The notes under the pieces are model-generated. The model saw only the letters and a list, made by a program, of their open reading frames with translations, did not search any database and was not told the DNA's origin. The position numbers and the translations under genes are program-made. From an uncultured Clostridia bacterium (GTDB lineage Bacteria; Bacillota; Clostridia; Christensenellales; Borkfalkiaceae), in contig CALVYJ010000001.1 in the NCBI GenBank assembly GCA_944372075.1, positions 1 to 42,240 of the forward strand: a DNA stretch of 42,240 nt, given 5' to 3'. Shown here piece by piece: positions 152 to 12,201 of the stretch (the stretch's first letter is position 1; each line of letters opens with the position of its first letter).

Positions 152-724
152 CTATTTCTCGTTTGCTAAATCAAAGTCAAAAAGATGCAGTTTATAATCC
201 TTCACCATAAGCGAACGGTTATTAACGCCACAAGGGACTATCGTCAACCCTTCACGTTCAAGCCTCTCTTGTTGCAACTCCCGAGACATCAGTCTTGAAT
301 CCGATAGAACTCCCCGCGTAGATACCACCCTCCATAGAGGCACTTCCTGACTTCGCCACCAATCCTCGGTTCCGTGTACGAACTCTACTCGCTCCGCTTT
401 GTACTTTCGGCAAAGATAATCGCATATGTCGTCATATCGCGTAATAAATCCCTGCGGCACTTTCGCTACCAAATCGAGAAATTCTTCATATCGAACTTGC
501 TTTGCAGGCTTTGCCGGAATATAGGTAATTGTGCCTCTTGCTCCCTTCCCGTCTTTCGGAAGATTGATATTGAAAGGAATACCGTCCTCCGCAACGATGC
601 GTTTCAAAAACACTCGAATTGCCGTCGGCATATCTATCCCTATCTTATCCAAAACCTTCATTGCATCCCGTTTCAAATCCTCTTCCACTCGTACCTGTAT
701 AATAACACTCTGCGGCTCTTTCAT
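152..724 (-). CDS. Fusion of RelB/DinJ-type ribbon-helix-helix domain with alkyltransferase-like (ATL/MGMT-fold) domain
   Basis: This 190-residue protein has two recognisable parts. Residues about 5-55 (VRVEEDLKRDAMKVLDKIGI, then MPTAIRVFLKRIV...GIPF) match the RelB/DinJ antitoxin N-terminus, a ribbon-helix-helix DNA-binding dimeriser. Residues about 78-170 match the DNA-binding domain of O6-alkylguanine-DNA alkyltransferases: VPQGFITRYDDI, then PLWRVVSTRGVLS, then RLEREGL. The PCHR active site of the enzymes is replaced by P129-L-W-R132, so the alkyl-accepting cysteine is absent, as in alkyltransferase-like proteins, which bind damaged bases without repairing them. No toxin gene is adjacent. 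A TATAAT lies upstream at about 764-769 and an AAGGA site lies about 11 nt before the ATG. DNA-lesion sensing, or an antitoxin with an added DNA-binding domain, are possible roles. The domain calls are fairly secure; the function is not. Confidence 0.75.
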   Translation of the reverse strand: MKEPQSVIIQVRVEEDLKRDAMKVLDKIGIDMPTAIRVFLKRIVAEDGIPFNINLPKDGKGARGTITYIPAKPAKQVRYEEFLDLVAKVPQGFITRYDDICDYLCRKYKAERVEFVHGTEDWWRSQEVPLWRVVSTRGVLSDSRLMSRELQQERLEREGLTIVPCGVNNRSLMVKDYKLHLFDFDLANEK

Positions 725-2992: not shown

Positions 2993-4800
<1,808 letters not shown>

Positions 4801-5356: not shown

Positions 5357-6001
5357 TTATTTCAGCAATAAAAATGCCGTGATGACTGTCTGCACCAAGA
5401 GTAGTACAGGTGTCGCCCAAAACATAAACTTTCTAAAGCCGCGCTCGTAGTGTATGTCGTCTTTCACGCCGTCTATTTCTTTTTCAGCGGCTTTGACTTT
5501 CTTCGAGATTTCTTCTGCCTGCTTATCCATTTTTGCAATGGCACTGTCTGCAGCTTCGTTTATCTTCTTATTGAAAAGGGCGGTAGCTTCGTTAGTCGCC
5601 TTTGCCGTAGCTGTACTTACTTCTTCCTGTATTTGAGTTGCTATTTCCGTCATCCGGCGTATTAACTTCCTCAACACTTCCGACAGGTTGTTGTTGCTCT
5701 CTTTCAGCTCTTTCAGCATATTCTCTATGTCTTCTTTCAGATTCTTCACGAGCCCTTTGTTGTTCCATTTCACGTTCGACACTTGCTGCGTCAGTTCCTC
5801 GACTTGCGCAATTAGCTTCAAAATTAAGCCGTTGCATTTCTCGTTCGATACTGTCAAGGCTTGCTGCAATAAGGCTTCCCGCGCTTGCGCCGTGAGTAGC
5901 TGTACCTGTTCGCACAATTCTTGTGCCGGCAGATTGTCCTCGATAGTTACCGTTTCGTCCGCTATGGGCTGCGGACTTTTGCCTGTTAGTTTGTTCTCCA
6001 A
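5357..6001 (-). CDS. mobB: MobB-like coiled-coil membrane protein, overprinted on the relaxase gene
   Basis: This 214-residue protein has a mostly helical, charged body (about residues 45-185, with runs such as LTQQVSNVKWNNKGLVKNL and KMDKQAEEISKKVKAAEKEI) and one C-terminal membrane helix (FMFWATPVLLLVQTVITAFLLLK). This layout matches MobB-type mobilization proteins, which anchor the relaxosome to the membrane and stabilise relaxase-oriT complexes. The first 410 nt lie inside the 3' end of the relaxase gene in a different frame, as mobB does within mobA of several plasmids. An AGATATTGAGAAAACTTGG stretch precedes the ATG, without a strong ribosome site, so coupling to relaxase translation is likely. 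Confidence 0.75.
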   Translation of the reverse strand: MENKLTGKSPQPIADETVTIEDNLPAQELCEQVQLLTAQAREALLQQALTVSNEKCNGLILKLIAQVEELTQQVSNVKWNNKGLVKNLKEDIENMLKELKESNNNLSEVLRKLIRRMTEIATQIQEEVSTATAKATNEATALFNKKINEAADSAIAKMDKQAEEISKKVKAAEKEIDGVKDDIHYERGFRKFMFWATPVLLLVQTVITAFLLLK

Positions 6002-6734
6002 GTTTTCTCAATATCTCCTTTTTTGTGTAGTTTGTTCCGAGCTTTTCCCCTCGGATAGGTTTCTTTTTCTGCGGATGAAGGTAGGAATAGTCCTTACCGT
6101 CCTGCGTGATTTTTACGCCGTAACAACTGTCAAGGTATTCTTTGAACTCATCCGCCGTTTTACATTTACCTACGGCTTCCTGAATTACCTCGCGCAATTC
6201 TTCTTTCCAAGATACGCCGCCGTTCTTCATTATCTTTTGCTCCGTCGCCGTTCTGCTGTTCTTGCCGCGTTTACGGAAGTCCGTTTCGGTAAATCCGTAC
6301 TGCTTGCCGATACGATTAGCCTCGTCCTTCATAGCAACATAATCTTTGGGGCTGAATTGCAATTTCTTCCCCGTGAGCGGATCGACGGCGTTCACGATTA
6401 TGTGGCTATGTACGGTCTGCGTGTCGGTGTGGGTAGCGATTACGCACTCATAGTCCCGGAACAATTTTTCCGCAAGTTCTTCGGCGTACTTATGCGCTTG
6501 CAGTGGACTGACGTTATCTTTTCTCGCGCACGATAGTTTGAAGTGATAATACTTGCGCTCTTTGTAGTCCGTACCTTTTCCGTACATAGCCGCCGTTTCC
6601 TCAAACTGCTTGGCGTAGTCCTCATCCTCGAATAAATTACGGACGGATACATACGCCGCCTTTTCGGGCTTCGTAATATAAGTGATCGCGTTTTTTGGTC
6701 TTGCTTTGCCTGCGGTACATTTGAGTAACGGCAT
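5592..6734 (-). CDS. mobA: MobA/VirD2-family relaxase
   Basis: This 380-residue mobilization endonuclease would nick oriT and pilot the single strand during transfer. The relaxase domain spans residues about 1-240. The start MPLLKCTAGKARPKNAITYI contains the ITYI motif with the likely catalytic Tyr. The histidine triad is in THTDTQTVHSHIIVNAV (motif III). The LHPQKKKPIRGEKLG segment and KEILRKL follow. The C-terminal third is low-complexity, Gln/Glu/Arg-rich and is where the second frame encodes the MobB-like protein. Its ATG overlaps the MobC stop by one base (6734). The family is MOB-P-like by motif layout. Confidence 0.9.
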   Translation of the reverse strand: MPLLKCTAGKARPKNAITYITKPEKAAYVSVRNLFEDEDYAKQFEETAAMYGKGTDYKERKYYHFKLSCARKDNVSPLQAHKYAEELAEKLFRDYECVIATHTDTQTVHSHIIVNAVDPLTGKKLQFSPKDYVAMKDEANRIGKQYGFTETDFRKRGKNSRTATEQKIMKNGGVSWKEELREVIQEAVGKCKTADEFKEYLDSCYGVKITQDGKDYSYLHPQKKKPIRGEKLGTNYTKKEILRKLGEQTNRQKSAAHSGRNGNYRGQSAGTRIVRTGTATHGASAGSLIAASLDSIEREMQRLNFEANCASRGTDAASVEREMEQQRAREESERRHREYAERAEREQQQPVGSVEEVNTPDDGNSNSNTGRSKYSYGKGD

Positions 6735-7512: not shown

Positions 7513-10071
7513 CTACTTAATTGCAAATTTCATACCGTACATTTCGTATTTGCCGTTTTTATCTTCAACCACTTTGGGTGTAACGATAGTATCGTCGTCC
7601 ACGTCCCACATAAACTTTTCATATACGGGGCTGTTCATCAAGGCGGCGTAGATATGCCAATCCGAAGCAGCGTTCTTTTCATAATGCCGCAGGACGAGGA
7701 TAAGCACGTTTTTGTTCGTAAGCCATTTTGAGGCTTGCTCGTCGCGCTCGTTCTTTTCCTGTTCTATCCTGTCGTAGAGGACTTCTTTTTCATCATCGTC
7801 GGCAGAGCGCAGAGCGCTGTATAACTGCTTTATCCGAGCCTTTGCGGTGTCGCAGATTTCCACGATTTTATCCTTGTGCCTGTACTCGGTTGCATTACCT
7901 ATGACTAACGCGCTGCCGAGCTGAACGGATATGGGAATAAAGAATTTCTTTTGTTTTCTGCCTTCGCGGAAAGAAATTTTATTTGCCGCCTCATAGATAT
8001 AATCCATTGCGGTTTTATGAAAGCGGTATTGCCGTTCCTTATCTTTTATGCGGTGTATCTCTTTGAAAAAGACCGGCGCGGGAACACTATATTTCTTTTG
8101 CAGAGCCGTTATTTCCTTGCCGACATTTACATTGTCATAGGCGCGTTTTGCTTTGTCTATCTCAATACCAGACAATACGGCGAGCTTACACACGTCCTCG
8201 TAAACAGGAAGTATATCCTTTTCGTTTGCGCCGTTGTTGAATTTATCCCAAATAATGCTGTTGAGCCGTTGCGATAGATTTACGATCTCTCCGATTTTGT
8301 TCTCGCTTGTTTCATAATCGAGCAAGGCAACAGATGACTTTGACTTGCTCACGGAAGGGATATTGCATACAGGCACTTTGAATAGGCTTTTATATTTTTC
8401 TGCGGCTTCCACCAAAAGCGCGTCGTCCGTTACAAGCATAGCATCCGAGTCATAATCGCAACCATTCAGGCGCTGCTGTATATTCTCCCCGATGGCATTG
8501 ACGCAGACTATATTTTCGCCCAAGTCAAAGTAGTCCCATATATCTCCGTCAAGATTATTTTCCACGCAGTAGAGATTGCCCATAGTGATATGCGGTGAAC
8601 GGGCGCAAAGCAATTTTGCGCCATCGGCAAATCGTTCACAATAGATTTGCCCCGATTGCAAAATGCTCTTTATTTCTTCACCGGCTATGTATTGCAACAG
8701 TTCGGGACCGTTTCCGAAAAGAGTAGCATTTGTGCCGTTAAAAAGAATATGACCTTTTTTCAACCTGTCTTTCAGACTTCTGACCACGTCGTTACGGAAG
8801 TTTTCGTAAAGCGCCGTGTAGCTGAAATGCGGCGATTGGAACATAAGAGTAAACAGCACGTCCGCTCTGTCCGCAAGACCTTCGGCACGTTCTTCCGAAT
8901 CTTCGTCCTTATCTCTCGCAAAAGCGTCCGTAAAATGGTAACGCATAAAGTGTATTTCTTTGCGGACGATGGCGATATAATCTATGCTCGGTTGAAGCAA
9001 ACGGGCAACCTGTTCTTCCCCAAGAGGTAGTGTATTAAGCACCTGATAACTGCTCTGTACCGTTTTGCCGTGGAAAAAATGCGTAGGTTTATCCCATTTG
9101 ACCACGCCGAAGGTGCTATTTACATTGTCCGCCCACTTGCGGATATTCTTTTCGTTCAGGTCGCCGACGAATTTTAAGTATTTCAGGCTGTTGGGCGTTG
9201 TTACCATTACGATCTGACTTATATCCGTCGCAAGCGTAAAGCCGCGAGTTTTAAGGTCGTCAAGCGTTATGCCTTTGTCTTTTATCCATTGTTGTAGCTT
9301 TGTACGGAAGGCGCACGACTTGAAAAACTTGTTGCGAAGAAGCAGGAAGTGCTTGTCCGAATACTCGCCCGAAAACAGGCTTTCGTCCAAAAGGCTTTCT
9401 CCGTCCCATATATCGTTGGTTATCTGCGTTTCCTTTTCTGTGGCTATGAGCTTGCCGTCCTGCATTTCTACCGATACGACTTTATCTGTAAAAGTGCTTT
9501 TGTAGTCCGGCACAAAGAGGATACCGTCAAGCGGAATATCTATAACGCCCTTGATAGAGGAAAGAGATAAGGCGCGATAAGATTCCCACGACGCGAGGTC
9601 TGAACTTTGTTTAATGCCGCACTCGCTCCATTTGGTCATATACTTGTAAAGCCGCTCATCAATGAAAAGGCATTTACCTTCGCGTGAGCTGCCCGCGCTA
9701 CGCTTGTATCTTACATAGTGAACGCTATCCAAGTTAAAGCCGTTAGAGTAAAAGTGATCGCGCAGAGCCTTTTTGTTTATTACCTTACCGCCATCGGCTT
9801 TGTATGTATAATTGAACTTTACATTTACTACGGCGAGGGTGTAGGAATTATTGTGTTTGTCCACAAAGGAAAACTTTTTGCGGCAGATACGAGTATATGC
9901 CTTTTCAAGCTCTACCGTGTCAAGCGAATAATCCAATGTGTTTTTGAACAACCAAAAATAGGCGTCCGATTTGTATTCGGGCATTTTGTATCCGACTTCG
10001 ACGCCGTATTCCTGTTCGTGCTTGTATAGGTCGCAAGCCTCTATTGAAATTATCCGATAGCCCTTTACCAT
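7513..10071 (-). CDS. Single-chain RNA polymerase of the YonO/QDE-1 (RDR) double-psi beta-barrel family
   Basis: This 852-residue protein (start ATG 10071) carries the active-site signature of two-barrel RNA polymerases. NGCDYDSDAML at about 536-546 aligns with the beta' NADFDGDQM and with the DxDGD of eukaryotic RDRs, giving D539, D541 and D543 as metal ligands; the usual Gly is Ser. Just before it lies ARSPHITMGNLYCVEN, matching the RDR pattern RNPCLHPGD. The upstream barrel shows WDGESLLD (222-229) and RNKFFKSCAFRTKL (246-259), whose lysines would match the beta-subunit pair. SYQVLNTL (341-348) and the N-terminal RYKRSAGSSREGKCLF match RDR segments. Residues 550-852 are an uncharacterised helical tail. 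The enzyme could make RNA from DNA (as YonO does) or from RNA. It sits alone between terminators, opposite no partner. Exact template and role are unknown. Confidence 0.8.
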   Translation of the reverse strand: MVKGYRIISIEACDLYKHEQEYGVEVGYKMPEYKSDAYFWLFKNTLDYSLDTVELEKAYTRICRKKFSFVDKHNNSYTLAVVNVKFNYTYKADGGKVINKKALRDHFYSNGFNLDSVHYVRYKRSAGSSREGKCLFIDERLYKYMTKWSECGIKQSSDLASWESYRALSLSSIKGVIDIPLDGILFVPDYKSTFTDKVVSVEMQDGKLIATEKETQITNDIWDGESLLDESLFSGEYSDKHFLLLRNKFFKSCAFRTKLQQWIKDKGITLDDLKTRGFTLATDISQIVMVTTPNSLKYLKFVGDLNEKNIRKWADNVNSTFGVVKWDKPTHFFHGKTVQSSYQVLNTLPLGEEQVARLLQPSIDYIAIVRKEIHFMRYHFTDAFARDKDEDSEERAEGLADRADVLFTLMFQSPHFSYTALYENFRNDVVRSLKDRLKKGHILFNGTNATLFGNGPELLQYIAGEEIKSILQSGQIYCERFADGAKLLCARSPHITMGNLYCVENNLDGDIWDYFDLGENIVCVNAIGENIQQRLNGCDYDSDAMLVTDDALLVEAAEKYKSLFKVPVCNIPSVSKSKSSVALLDYETSENKIGEIVNLSQRLNSIIWDKFNNGANEKDILPVYEDVCKLAVLSGIEIDKAKRAYDNVNVGKEITALQKKYSVPAPVFFKEIHRIKDKERQYRFHKTAMDYIYEAANKISFREGRKQKKFFIPISVQLGSALVIGNATEYRHKDKIVEICDTAKARIKQLYSALRSADDDEKEVLYDRIEQEKNERDEQASKWLTNKNVLILVLRHYEKNAASDWHIYAALMNSPVYEKFMWDVDDDTIVTPKVVEDKNGKYEMYGMKFAIK

Positions 10072-10110
10072 AAAGCTATTATAACATATTATTGTTGACA
10101 ATAGTTGTCA
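10072..10110 (-). promoter_or_regulatory. Extended -10 promoter giving a leaderless mRNA, with upstream inverted repeat
   Basis: On the minus strand TGTTATAAT (TG at 10086-10085, TATAAT at 10083-10078) is a perfect extended -10 box placed 6 nt before the polymerase ATG. Transcription would begin at or next to the A of the start codon, and no ribosome site exists. TGACAA-TAG-TTGTCA (10096-10110) is a perfect inverted repeat where a -35 box would be, so an activator or repressor may bind there. Confidence 0.65.
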
Positions 10111-10391: not shown

Positions 10392-10450
10392 TTGACAAAT
10401 GTCCGAATTCGGACTATAATATTTGTGTCCGAATTCGGACTGTCGGAGGG
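10392..10450 (+). promoter_or_regulatory. marR-cfr promoter with two identical palindromic operators
   Basis: TTGACA (10392-10397), a 17-nt spacer and TATAAT (10415-10420) form a consensus promoter. GTCCGAATTCGGAC, a perfect 14-bp palindrome, fills the spacer at 10401-10414 and recurs at 10427-10440, 26 bp away and over the start of transcription. This is a textbook repressor arrangement for a MarR dimer. GGAGGG (10445-10450) is the ribosome site. Confidence 0.85.
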
Positions 10451-10462
10451 TTAGAATAAGAA

Positions 10463-10912
10463 ATGAATATTAGAGAACAATTATCTGAATTAAATAAAAT
10501 GTCTAAACGTAGTGTCGCACTTTACCATAAATTTGCAAATTCTATCGGAATTTCAGATAGTTCGCTTGGCGTTTTATATGCGTTAGCGGAAGGCGCTCCT
10601 TGTTCGCAATACGATTTATGTAATAAATGGGCAATTCCAAAACAAACCGTAAATACCGCCTTAGCCTCTTTGCAAAATAAAGGATTTATAACTCTTTCCA
10701 CGATTAGCGGAACAAGAAAAAAGAAAAGTATTTCTTTAACCGCCGCAGGAAAGGAATTTGCCGCAAAGACAATCAATGTATTACTTGATACGGAGCTTGC
10801 CGCCCTTGCCTCTTTAACGCCCGAAGAAAGAGAGCTTTATATCAGCTTAAATAAGAAATATAACGAACATTTAACAGAGAAACTCCAAAATATTATTATG
10901 GGAACAAGTTAA
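10463..10912 (+). CDS. MarR-family transcriptional regulator
   Basis: This 149-residue protein has the MarR winged helix-turn-helix layout. The dimerisation helix comes first (LSELNKMSKRSVALYHKFAN), then SSLGVLYALAEGA, the recognition helix region (QYDLCNKWAIPKQTVNTALASL), the wing (KGFITLSTISGTRKKKSISL) and the C-terminal helix (TPEERELYISLNKKYNEHL). Two identical palindromes in its promoter are the obvious operators, so it probably represses itself and the downstream Cfr-like gene, which begins 3 nt after its stop codon. The inducer is unknown; a ribosome-targeting antibiotic is a reasonable guess because of the neighbour. Confidence 0.85.
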   Translation: MNIREQLSELNKMSKRSVALYHKFANSIGISDSSLGVLYALAEGAPCSQYDLCNKWAIPKQTVNTALASLQNKGFITLSTISGTRKKKSISLTAAGKEFAAKTINVLLDTELAALASLTPEERELYISLNKKYNEHLTEKLQNIIMGTS

Positions 10913-10915
10913 ATT

Positions 10916-12157
10916 ATGTCAAAATTTCTAAAAATGAAAGAGCTTATAGCCGAGATGAACTTGCCCGATTATCGCTATAAGCAATTATTGGACGCTGTCT
11001 TCCGACAACACACAATACGCTTTGAAGATATGAAACCGCTCCCAAAAGAACTGCGGGGAAAACTTATCGAGCAATTTGGGGAAACGGTAATAGGAATTAA
11101 AGCTATTCATCACGAAAAATCAACGCAAACTGACAAGGTACTGTTTGAACTGCCCGACGGCAACCGCGTTGAAACGGTAGGCTTGTTTTACAAAGAGGGT
11201 TGGAATTCATTTTGTATATCCTCGCAGAGCGGTTGTGCATTTGGTTGTAAATTCTGTGCTACGGGCACGCTGGGTTTACATAGAAATATGACGTCAGATG
11301 AGATATGCGACCAAGTTCTTTACTTTATGCAGCAGGGGTTTACGATAAACAGCATTTCCTTTATGGGTATGGGCGAGCCGTTTGCAAACCCGAATTTGTT
11401 TGAAGCTCTGCGCGACTTGACGGATACTGAATTATTCGGCTTATCTCAAAGACGAATAACCATCTCTACTATCGGCATAGTTCCAAGTATTAAAAGATTG
11501 ACAAAAGAATTTCCGCAGATTAATTTAGCATATTCACTACACGCGCCGACTAATCAGTTGAGGGAAACGCTTATGCCGATTACAAAAACGTACTCTCTTG
11601 ATTTGGTACTTGACACGTTAGATAACCATATACGACAAACAAATCGAAAAGTATTTTTAGCATATATAATGCTGAAAGGTATAAATGACAGCGAAAAACA
11701 CGCCGAGCAACTTATAGAACTATTATTCCGGCACAAAAAATATCTTGCACTATATCATTTAGACTTAATTCCGTATAATCAGACAACGGTTGCTCAAAAA
11801 CTAACGCCACCAAGCAACAAGTGCATACAAGCTTTTTGCAAAGTTTTGCACGGTGCGGGAATAAGCGTAAATATAAGGACGCAATTCGGTTCTGATATAA
11901 ATGCCGCTTGCGGTCAGTTGGCTGGAACATACAACAATAAATCAGAAAAAGGAGAAACAAAAATGTTACAAGAACAAGAAAAATCATTACAGTGGTTATT
12001 GTGTCCTGTGTGTAAAAACAAAACACGGGTAAAAATAAGAGATGATACCGTACTTGAAAAATTTCCGCTGTTTTGTCCAAAATGTAAAAACGAAACGCTT
12101 ATCAATGTTAAACAATTTAATATAACCGTCATCAAAGAGCCAAACGCAAAGACGTAG
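10916..12157 (+). CDS. Cfr-like 23S rRNA (adenine2503-C8) methyltransferase fused to a cysteine-rich KTR domain
   Basis: Residues 1-340 resemble Cfr more than RlmN: RFEDMKPLPKELR, WNSFCISSQSGC, FGCKFCATG, and ISTIGIVPSIKRLTKEFPQ. The radical-SAM cluster cysteines are C107, C111 and C114; the methyl-carrying C100 and C332 (AACGQL) match the two catalytic cysteines of Cfr. Cfr enzymes methylate A2503 at C8 and give resistance to phenicols, lincosamides, oxazolidinones, pleuromutilins and streptogramin A. Residues 360-413 form the KTR zinc ribbon (CPVC at 363-366, CPKC at 387-390), usually a separate small protein of conjugative elements. The frame is continuous, but a GGAG (11951-11954) before the ATG at 11963 (residue 350) could also give free KTR protein. 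No ribosome site precedes 10916, so translation is likely coupled to marR. Activity is not proven. Confidence 0.85.
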   Translation: MSKFLKMKELIAEMNLPDYRYKQLLDAVFRQHTIRFEDMKPLPKELRGKLIEQFGETVIGIKAIHHEKSTQTDKVLFELPDGNRVETVGLFYKEGWNSFCISSQSGCAFGCKFCATGTLGLHRNMTSDEICDQVLYFMQQGFTINSISFMGMGEPFANPNLFEALRDLTDTELFGLSQRRITISTIGIVPSIKRLTKEFPQINLAYSLHAPTNQLRETLMPITKTYSLDLVLDTLDNHIRQTNRKVFLAYIMLKGINDSEKHAEQLIELLFRHKKYLALYHLDLIPYNQTTVAQKLTPPSNKCIQAFCKVLHGAGISVNIRTQFGSDINAACGQLAGTYNNKSEKGETKMLQEQEKSLQWLLCPVCKNKTRVKIRDDTVLEKFPLFCPKCKNETLINVKQFNITVIKEPNAKT

Positions 12158-12201
12158 AGCCGATAATTCACAAAGTTCAAATTGTGTTTATCGGCTTTTT
12201 T
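12158..12201 (+). terminator. Terminator of the marR-cfr operon
   Basis: AGCCGATAA pairs with TTATCGGCT (12188-12196), with an inner CACAA/TTGTG, followed by TTTTTT. It begins directly after the stop codon. Confidence 0.85.

Follow-up and report, generated by a model that had tools for sequence, protein, structure and literature searches.

A putative MarR-repressed cfr(C)-like resistance operon on a probable integrative mobilizable element of an uncultured Clostridia bacterium

Cfr enzymes are known to confer cross-resistance to several classes of drugs, including the last-line drug linezolid, and the level of their expression sets the resistance as well as its cost. Members of one Cfr class share at least about 80% amino-acid identity, and cfr(C) and cfr(E) are suspected to have a reservoir in Clostridia. 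A published phylogeny unites these two in one clade with several gut Clostridia (PMC11047308), and cfr(C) is present in linezolid-resistant isolates (PMC13041314). The described cfr genes are found behind different neighbors. A TetR/AcrR gene is located about 630 bp upstream of cfr(B), and cfr(D) follows poxtA2 in a plasmid record. A cfr gene that is regulated by MarR was not found in the open literature.

Here we describe a cfr(C)-like gene that is preceded by a marR gene and lies in a window (the whole stretch of DNA that was analyzed) of 42,240 nucleotides from an uncultured Clostridia bacterium. Read from the sequence, the order on the plus strand is a promoter, two identical palindromes, marR, the cfr(C)-like gene, which runs into a KTR ORF, and a terminator. 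The gap between marR and cfr is only 3 bp, with both genes on the same strand. The coordinates of the first-pass annotation proved exact, with cfr (10916-12157) encoding 413 amino acids in one frame. With a probability of roughly 75%, we interpret the locus as a resistance operon composed of promoter, two operators, marR, cfr(C)-like gene and terminator, which is repressed by MarR, released by a ligand and travels as cargo on what is probably an integrative mobilizable element. What is new is, on the best reading, a Cfr(C)-like member under a new control that is probably inducible.

The promoter TTGACA-17-TATAAT (10392-10420, plus strand) matches the consensus in 12 of 12 positions and is the only strong promoter on the operon strand. 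As the first-pass annotation had noticed, two identical perfect palindromes lie over it, both with the 14-bp sequence GTCCGAATTCGGAC. Operator 1 (10401-10414) occupies most of the 17-bp spacer between -35 and -10, and operator 2 (10427-10440) is located 26 bp downstream of operator 1, beginning about 7 bp beyond the -10 hexamer, which ends at 10420, and lying at the expected transcription start. No other copy with zero or one mismatch is present in the whole 1.88-Mb genome, and the backwards pattern, which served as control, gave zero genome matches. When three mismatches were allowed in the window, the two exact copies were joined by only a single site with three mismatches, and therefore the number of palindromes at this tolerance is at chance level. 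It is the exactness and the position of the two copies, not their count, that exceed chance. In the RNA leader no Rfam family reached the gathering score, and a single sub-threshold match to a plant miRNA was ignored.

The marR gene (10463-10912, plus strand) has the ribosome-binding site GGAGGG (10445-10450, plus strand) and encodes a 149-aa regulator of the MarR family, the presumed autorepressor of the operon, whose MarR_2 domain (Pfam, E 2.3e-10) scores 40.9 bits and thus exceeds the gathering score of 27. A MarR gene before cfr had been part of the first-pass annotation; the kinship of this regulator with exporter-linked MarR proteins goes beyond it. Besides this genome, 20 of 391 genomes of the class contain homologs (E<=1e-15), of which 19 were taken as loci for counting neighborhoods and operators. 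The largest gene downstream of the homolog encodes a MatE (MATE) exporter at 12 of the 19 loci and an ABC exporter at two, and a MATE-linked homolog is annotated on a replicon of Pusillibacter faecalis as well. We used the operator of the window as a prediction and compared the best two matches in 120 bases around the start of each homolog with dinucleotide shuffles. A window-like operator pair was present at p<=0.02 in 14 of the 19 homologs, the paired sites being mostly 23-30 bp apart. In many of them (e.g., L099, L105, L107, L114, and L115), the first site lies within a TTGACA-17-TATAAT spacer, as it does here. The exporter neighbors and the paired operators of the homologs suggest that the promoter-operator-marR unit is an exporter-type autorepressor unit. 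Apparently, the controlled gene was swapped and cfr was placed behind it. The anatomy of the operators and its conservation in the homologs strongly suggest that the operon is under MarR control. Since the nearest homologs found are just 29-42% identical, the ligand and even the sign of regulation are what we infer.

The alternative that survives best, although we hold it to be improbable, is that cfr landed beside an unrelated marR by chance, so that its expression is effectively constitutive and MarR acts elsewhere or is non-functional. Known cfr(C) indeed sits behind other genes, e.g., aph(3')-IIIa, and its context varies. Furthermore, close before cfr there is no near-consensus promoter equal to the 12/12 one, but a 10/12 promoter-like match is present inside the end of marR (10871-10899). 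Such matches occur there in near chance number, and some constitutive transcription of cfr could start from this one. However, a chance pairing has to be reconciled with the short gap and common strand of the two genes, with a perfect promoter and two identical operators before both of them, and with an intact operator layout of the MarR family. A point against our own reading is the weak ribosome-binding site at the start of cfr, whose translation is therefore probably coupled to that of marR.

A feature that was added to the first-pass annotation is the C-terminal KTR domain, which is fused in frame to the Cfr core. The core comprises about residues 1-345 of the 413-aa ORF, and the Pfam domain Cys_rich_KTR covers residues 359-411 (100.5-105 bits; cut-off 25.5). 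The cfr frame is not terminated where the core ends, but passes an AGGAG (11950-11954) and an ATG into a “cysteine-rich KTR” ORF of the Tn916 type. From this internal ATG, a separate Cys-rich KTR protein of 64 amino acids may be translated (11963-12157, plus strand). As the frame crosses both the AGGAG and the ATG at 11963 unstopped, the KTR product could be fused, separate, or both. On plasmids, free-standing KTR ORFs with 64-70% identity immediately follow tet(M), tet(O), and tet(S). The end of the ORF overlaps the hairpin of a strong Rho-independent terminator with a T run (12156-12198, plus strand; fold -18.7 kcal/mol, z -6.2), which closes the operon. The KTR ORFs that follow the three tet genes (L129-L132) end in GACGCAAAGACGCAGAGCCGATAA or a near variant. 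A stretch of the same type also ends the KTR ORF of the window and serves there as 5' arm of the terminator.

One could argue that fusion to the tail has cost the enzyme its activity, or that the tail is neutral read-through, and that the locus is merely a decaying resistance gene, since a stop codon is missing at the end of Cfr and the KTR ORF has a ribosome-binding site and a start of its own. We consider this explanation slightly less probable still than a chance pairing. In known Cfr(C) the core is likewise followed in frame by AGGAGA and ATG, and then by unrelated tails of different lengths, and linezolid-resistant isolates carry cfr(C) (PMC13041314). In addition, the frame of the window gene is otherwise intact and all catalytic residues are present. 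The published Cfr(C) proteins have no stop at the core end and cross a ribosome-binding site and ATG in frame (L003, 3260-3335; L004, 5030-5137). Because the core runs unstopped through both into unrelated tails, the variable C-termini of Cfr(C) are probably no part of the enzyme. The simplest explanation would be a loss of the stop in the Cfr(C) lineage at a time when a downstream ORF was linked to it, with the KTR partner being retained by the window gene. Nevertheless, a KTR read-through tail could lower the activity of Cfr.

The enzyme itself can very probably be regarded as a Cfr-type C8 methylase, i.e., as a cfr(C)-like 23S rRNA A2503-C8 methyltransferase, as profiles, residues, and tree suggest. 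Three Cfr models of NCBIfam top the profile list for the 413-aa ORF, which lies above the curated cut-offs of CfrAB (549.9 vs. 530) and PRK14453 (524.2 vs. 468), whereas the RlmN model TIGR00048 stays below its own cut-off (281 vs. 290). A true RlmN reaches no more than about half of any of the Cfr cut-offs. The catalytic cysteines C100 and C332 correspond to C105 and C338 of Cfr(A), and the radical-SAM triad CxxxCxxC (C107, C111, and C114) aligns with that of Cfr(A) too, so that the residues named in the first-pass annotation are all kept. Identities were compared with Cfr(A), Cfr(B), Cfr(C), Cfr(D), and the RlmN of the genome itself. Of these, the closest over the 345 residues of the core is Cfr(C) of Clostridioides difficile with 79.1%, a borderline value given the class limit of about 80%; Cfr(A), Cfr(B), and Cfr(D) follow with 55.4%, 51.0%, and 47.8%, and the genome's own RlmN with 37.7%. 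In a maximum-likelihood tree it is the sister of Cfr(C) with a support of 100/99, within a Cfr clade supported by 100/100, and the genome's own RlmN groups with the RlmNs of its relatives. The place beside Cfr(C) agrees with the published phylogeny (PMC11047308). Hence, the first-pass description of a Cfr-like rather than RlmN-like protein is borne out by alignment, profiles, and tree; its “divergent” member does belong to the Cfr family, but with 79% identity to a known Cfr(C) it stands only moderately apart. An identity as RlmN was rejected, as profiles and tree are against it. That the protein is a housekeeping-type or RlmN-like A2503 methylase without a role in resistance is very improbable, because, despite some RlmN-like letters (MGMGEP) and a score too low for one of the Cfr models (TIGR04432), the resistance gene product Cfr(C), which passes CfrAB and PRK14453, also misses the cut-off of this model (523 vs. 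550) and RlmN scores 234 on it, the protein falls into Cfr in the tree, and the genome has its own RlmN.

The surroundings of the operon point to a mobile element. A large serine recombinase (2993-4615, minus strand) with the Pfam domains Resolvase, Recombinase, Zn_ribbon_recom, and DUF4368 is Ccr/XisF-like, and a relaxase of the MobA/VirD2 type (5592-6734, minus strand) matches Pfam Relaxase with E 1.7e-27. Recombinase and relaxase, by which an integrative mobilizable element is recognized, thus lie between 2.9 and 6.8 kb, and no genes of a transfer machinery were recognized among the ORFs examined. The cargo adjoins an 862-aa ORF of the element backbone (7513-10101, minus strand; phrog_8308). 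Two congeneric genomes contain 68-69% identical relatives of this ORF, there accompanied by different cargo or by none. On the cargo side there is a glycosyltransferase-like gene at a distance of about 190 bp in one of them (G001), and in the other (G002) a frame that, read by eye, resembles the end of a restriction enzyme; the slot next to the 862-aa ORF is therefore variable. The first-pass annotation had spoken of an AT-rich acquired cassette on a mobile background. Both are supported, the former by a GC content of 0.36-0.42, compared with about 0.5 for the chromosomal DNA that follows on the right, and the latter by serine recombinase, relaxase, and variable cargo. From about 12.75 kb rightward the window aligns at 70-74% DNA identity with the chromosome of a congener, and therefore the operon belongs to this genome and is no stray contig. 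Between 2.5-3.0 and 12.1-12.7 kb no convincing direct repeat (att) was found that would mark the ends of the element, and no empty site was found either.

The 862-aa ORF has no match in Pfam or PADLOC and no credible sequence match in the PDB, and an AlphaFold model made without alignment was uninformative (pLDDT 35). Its motif NGCDYDSDAMLVTD (NGCDYDSDTMLITD in the G001 relative) is by eye like the DxDxD center of two-barrel RNA polymerases (QDE-1/YonO-like). At 2856-2906, the window contains a 3' fragment of tRNA-Thr(CGT) that is 96% identical to the intact gene on another contig (C64, 2291-2366), where the latter is followed by an integrase-like frame, as read by eye. A second element, whose other end lies on C64, probably has this fragment as its att site. 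Finally, at 152-724 (minus strand) a RelB antitoxin domain is in one frame with a 6-O-methylguanine-DNA methyltransferase-like domain (DNA_binding_1), the latter barely above its gathering score.

For the regulation of the operon we propose the following. MarR dimers would occupy both palindromes, one between -35 and -10 and the other at the start site, and thereby shut off their own operon. Repression by this MarR at the two palindromes is, given the operator anatomy, a likely assumption. The repressor would then be released by a small molecule, probably one to which the ancestral MarR responded with induction of an exporter, and by analogy we lean towards induction by such a ligand of exporter-type regulators. 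Upon release the Cfr enzyme would be made and would transfer a methyl group to C8 of A2503 in 23S rRNA, which would block phenicols, lincosamides, oxazolidinones, pleuromutilins, and streptogramin A. In the repressed state, the cell would be spared the cost of high Cfr levels. A reason for repressing cfr can be seen in E. coli, where strong production of Cfr goes along with a fitness defect (PMC8752094). A more far-reaching idea, which we regard as rather doubtful, is that through the re-use of a drug-sensing exporter regulator Cfr, with its five-class cross-resistance, became inducible, whether by a drug that targets the ribosome or by some unrelated compound of the gut that binds MarR, and that the fused KTR zinc-ribbon, common to ribosome-protection tet genes, is a functional accessory of resistance proteins acting on the ribosome. 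Under a repressor that responds to a ligand, a cfr gene could remain unexpressed during routine susceptibility testing and still be turned on by an unrelated compound. Moreover, it would show a modular route in Clostridia by which the regulator of an exporter is reused for a target-modifying enzyme.

A second MarR-cfr pair was found in none of 391 genomes of the class, 201 of the family, and 398 of the phylum, with one genome per species. The best matches in plasmid DNA align from the end of marR or the start of cfr on and not with the marR-promoter part, and IMG/VR contained no relative. A scan of genome contigs returned mostly RlmN; the only Cfr, with 56%, was in Tissierella and had no MarR homolog nearby.

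Compared to the described systems, the locus is closest to Cfr(C) of C. difficile and Campylobacter coli, with which it shares 79% identity in the core, the catalytic residues, the pattern of NCBIfam profiles, a core end without stop, and the carriage on mobile elements of anaerobes. Unlike here, Cfr(C) has no MarR or operator pair upstream, but aph(3')-IIIa at a distance of 52 bp in plasmid records, and its differing tails lack a KTR domain. Cfr(A), Cfr(B), and Cfr(D) belong to the same family and clade, but are only 55%, 51%, and 48% identical, and no MarR adjoins them in the records compared, that of Cfr(A) starting at the gene. The first-pass statement that known cfr genes are without MarR is thus correct for the records of Cfr(A) to Cfr(D) compared here. 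In the Tn916-type units that combine tet(M), tet(O), or tet(S) with KTR, the same KTR ORF comes right after a ribosome-targeting resistance gene, there as a separate ORF and here in frame with the resistance gene. The autoregulated MarR-MATE exporter operons of Clostridia, finally, share with the locus a homologous regulator and a consensus promoter with one palindrome within its spacer and another further downstream, but the neighboring gene encodes an exporter there and an rRNA methyltransferase here.
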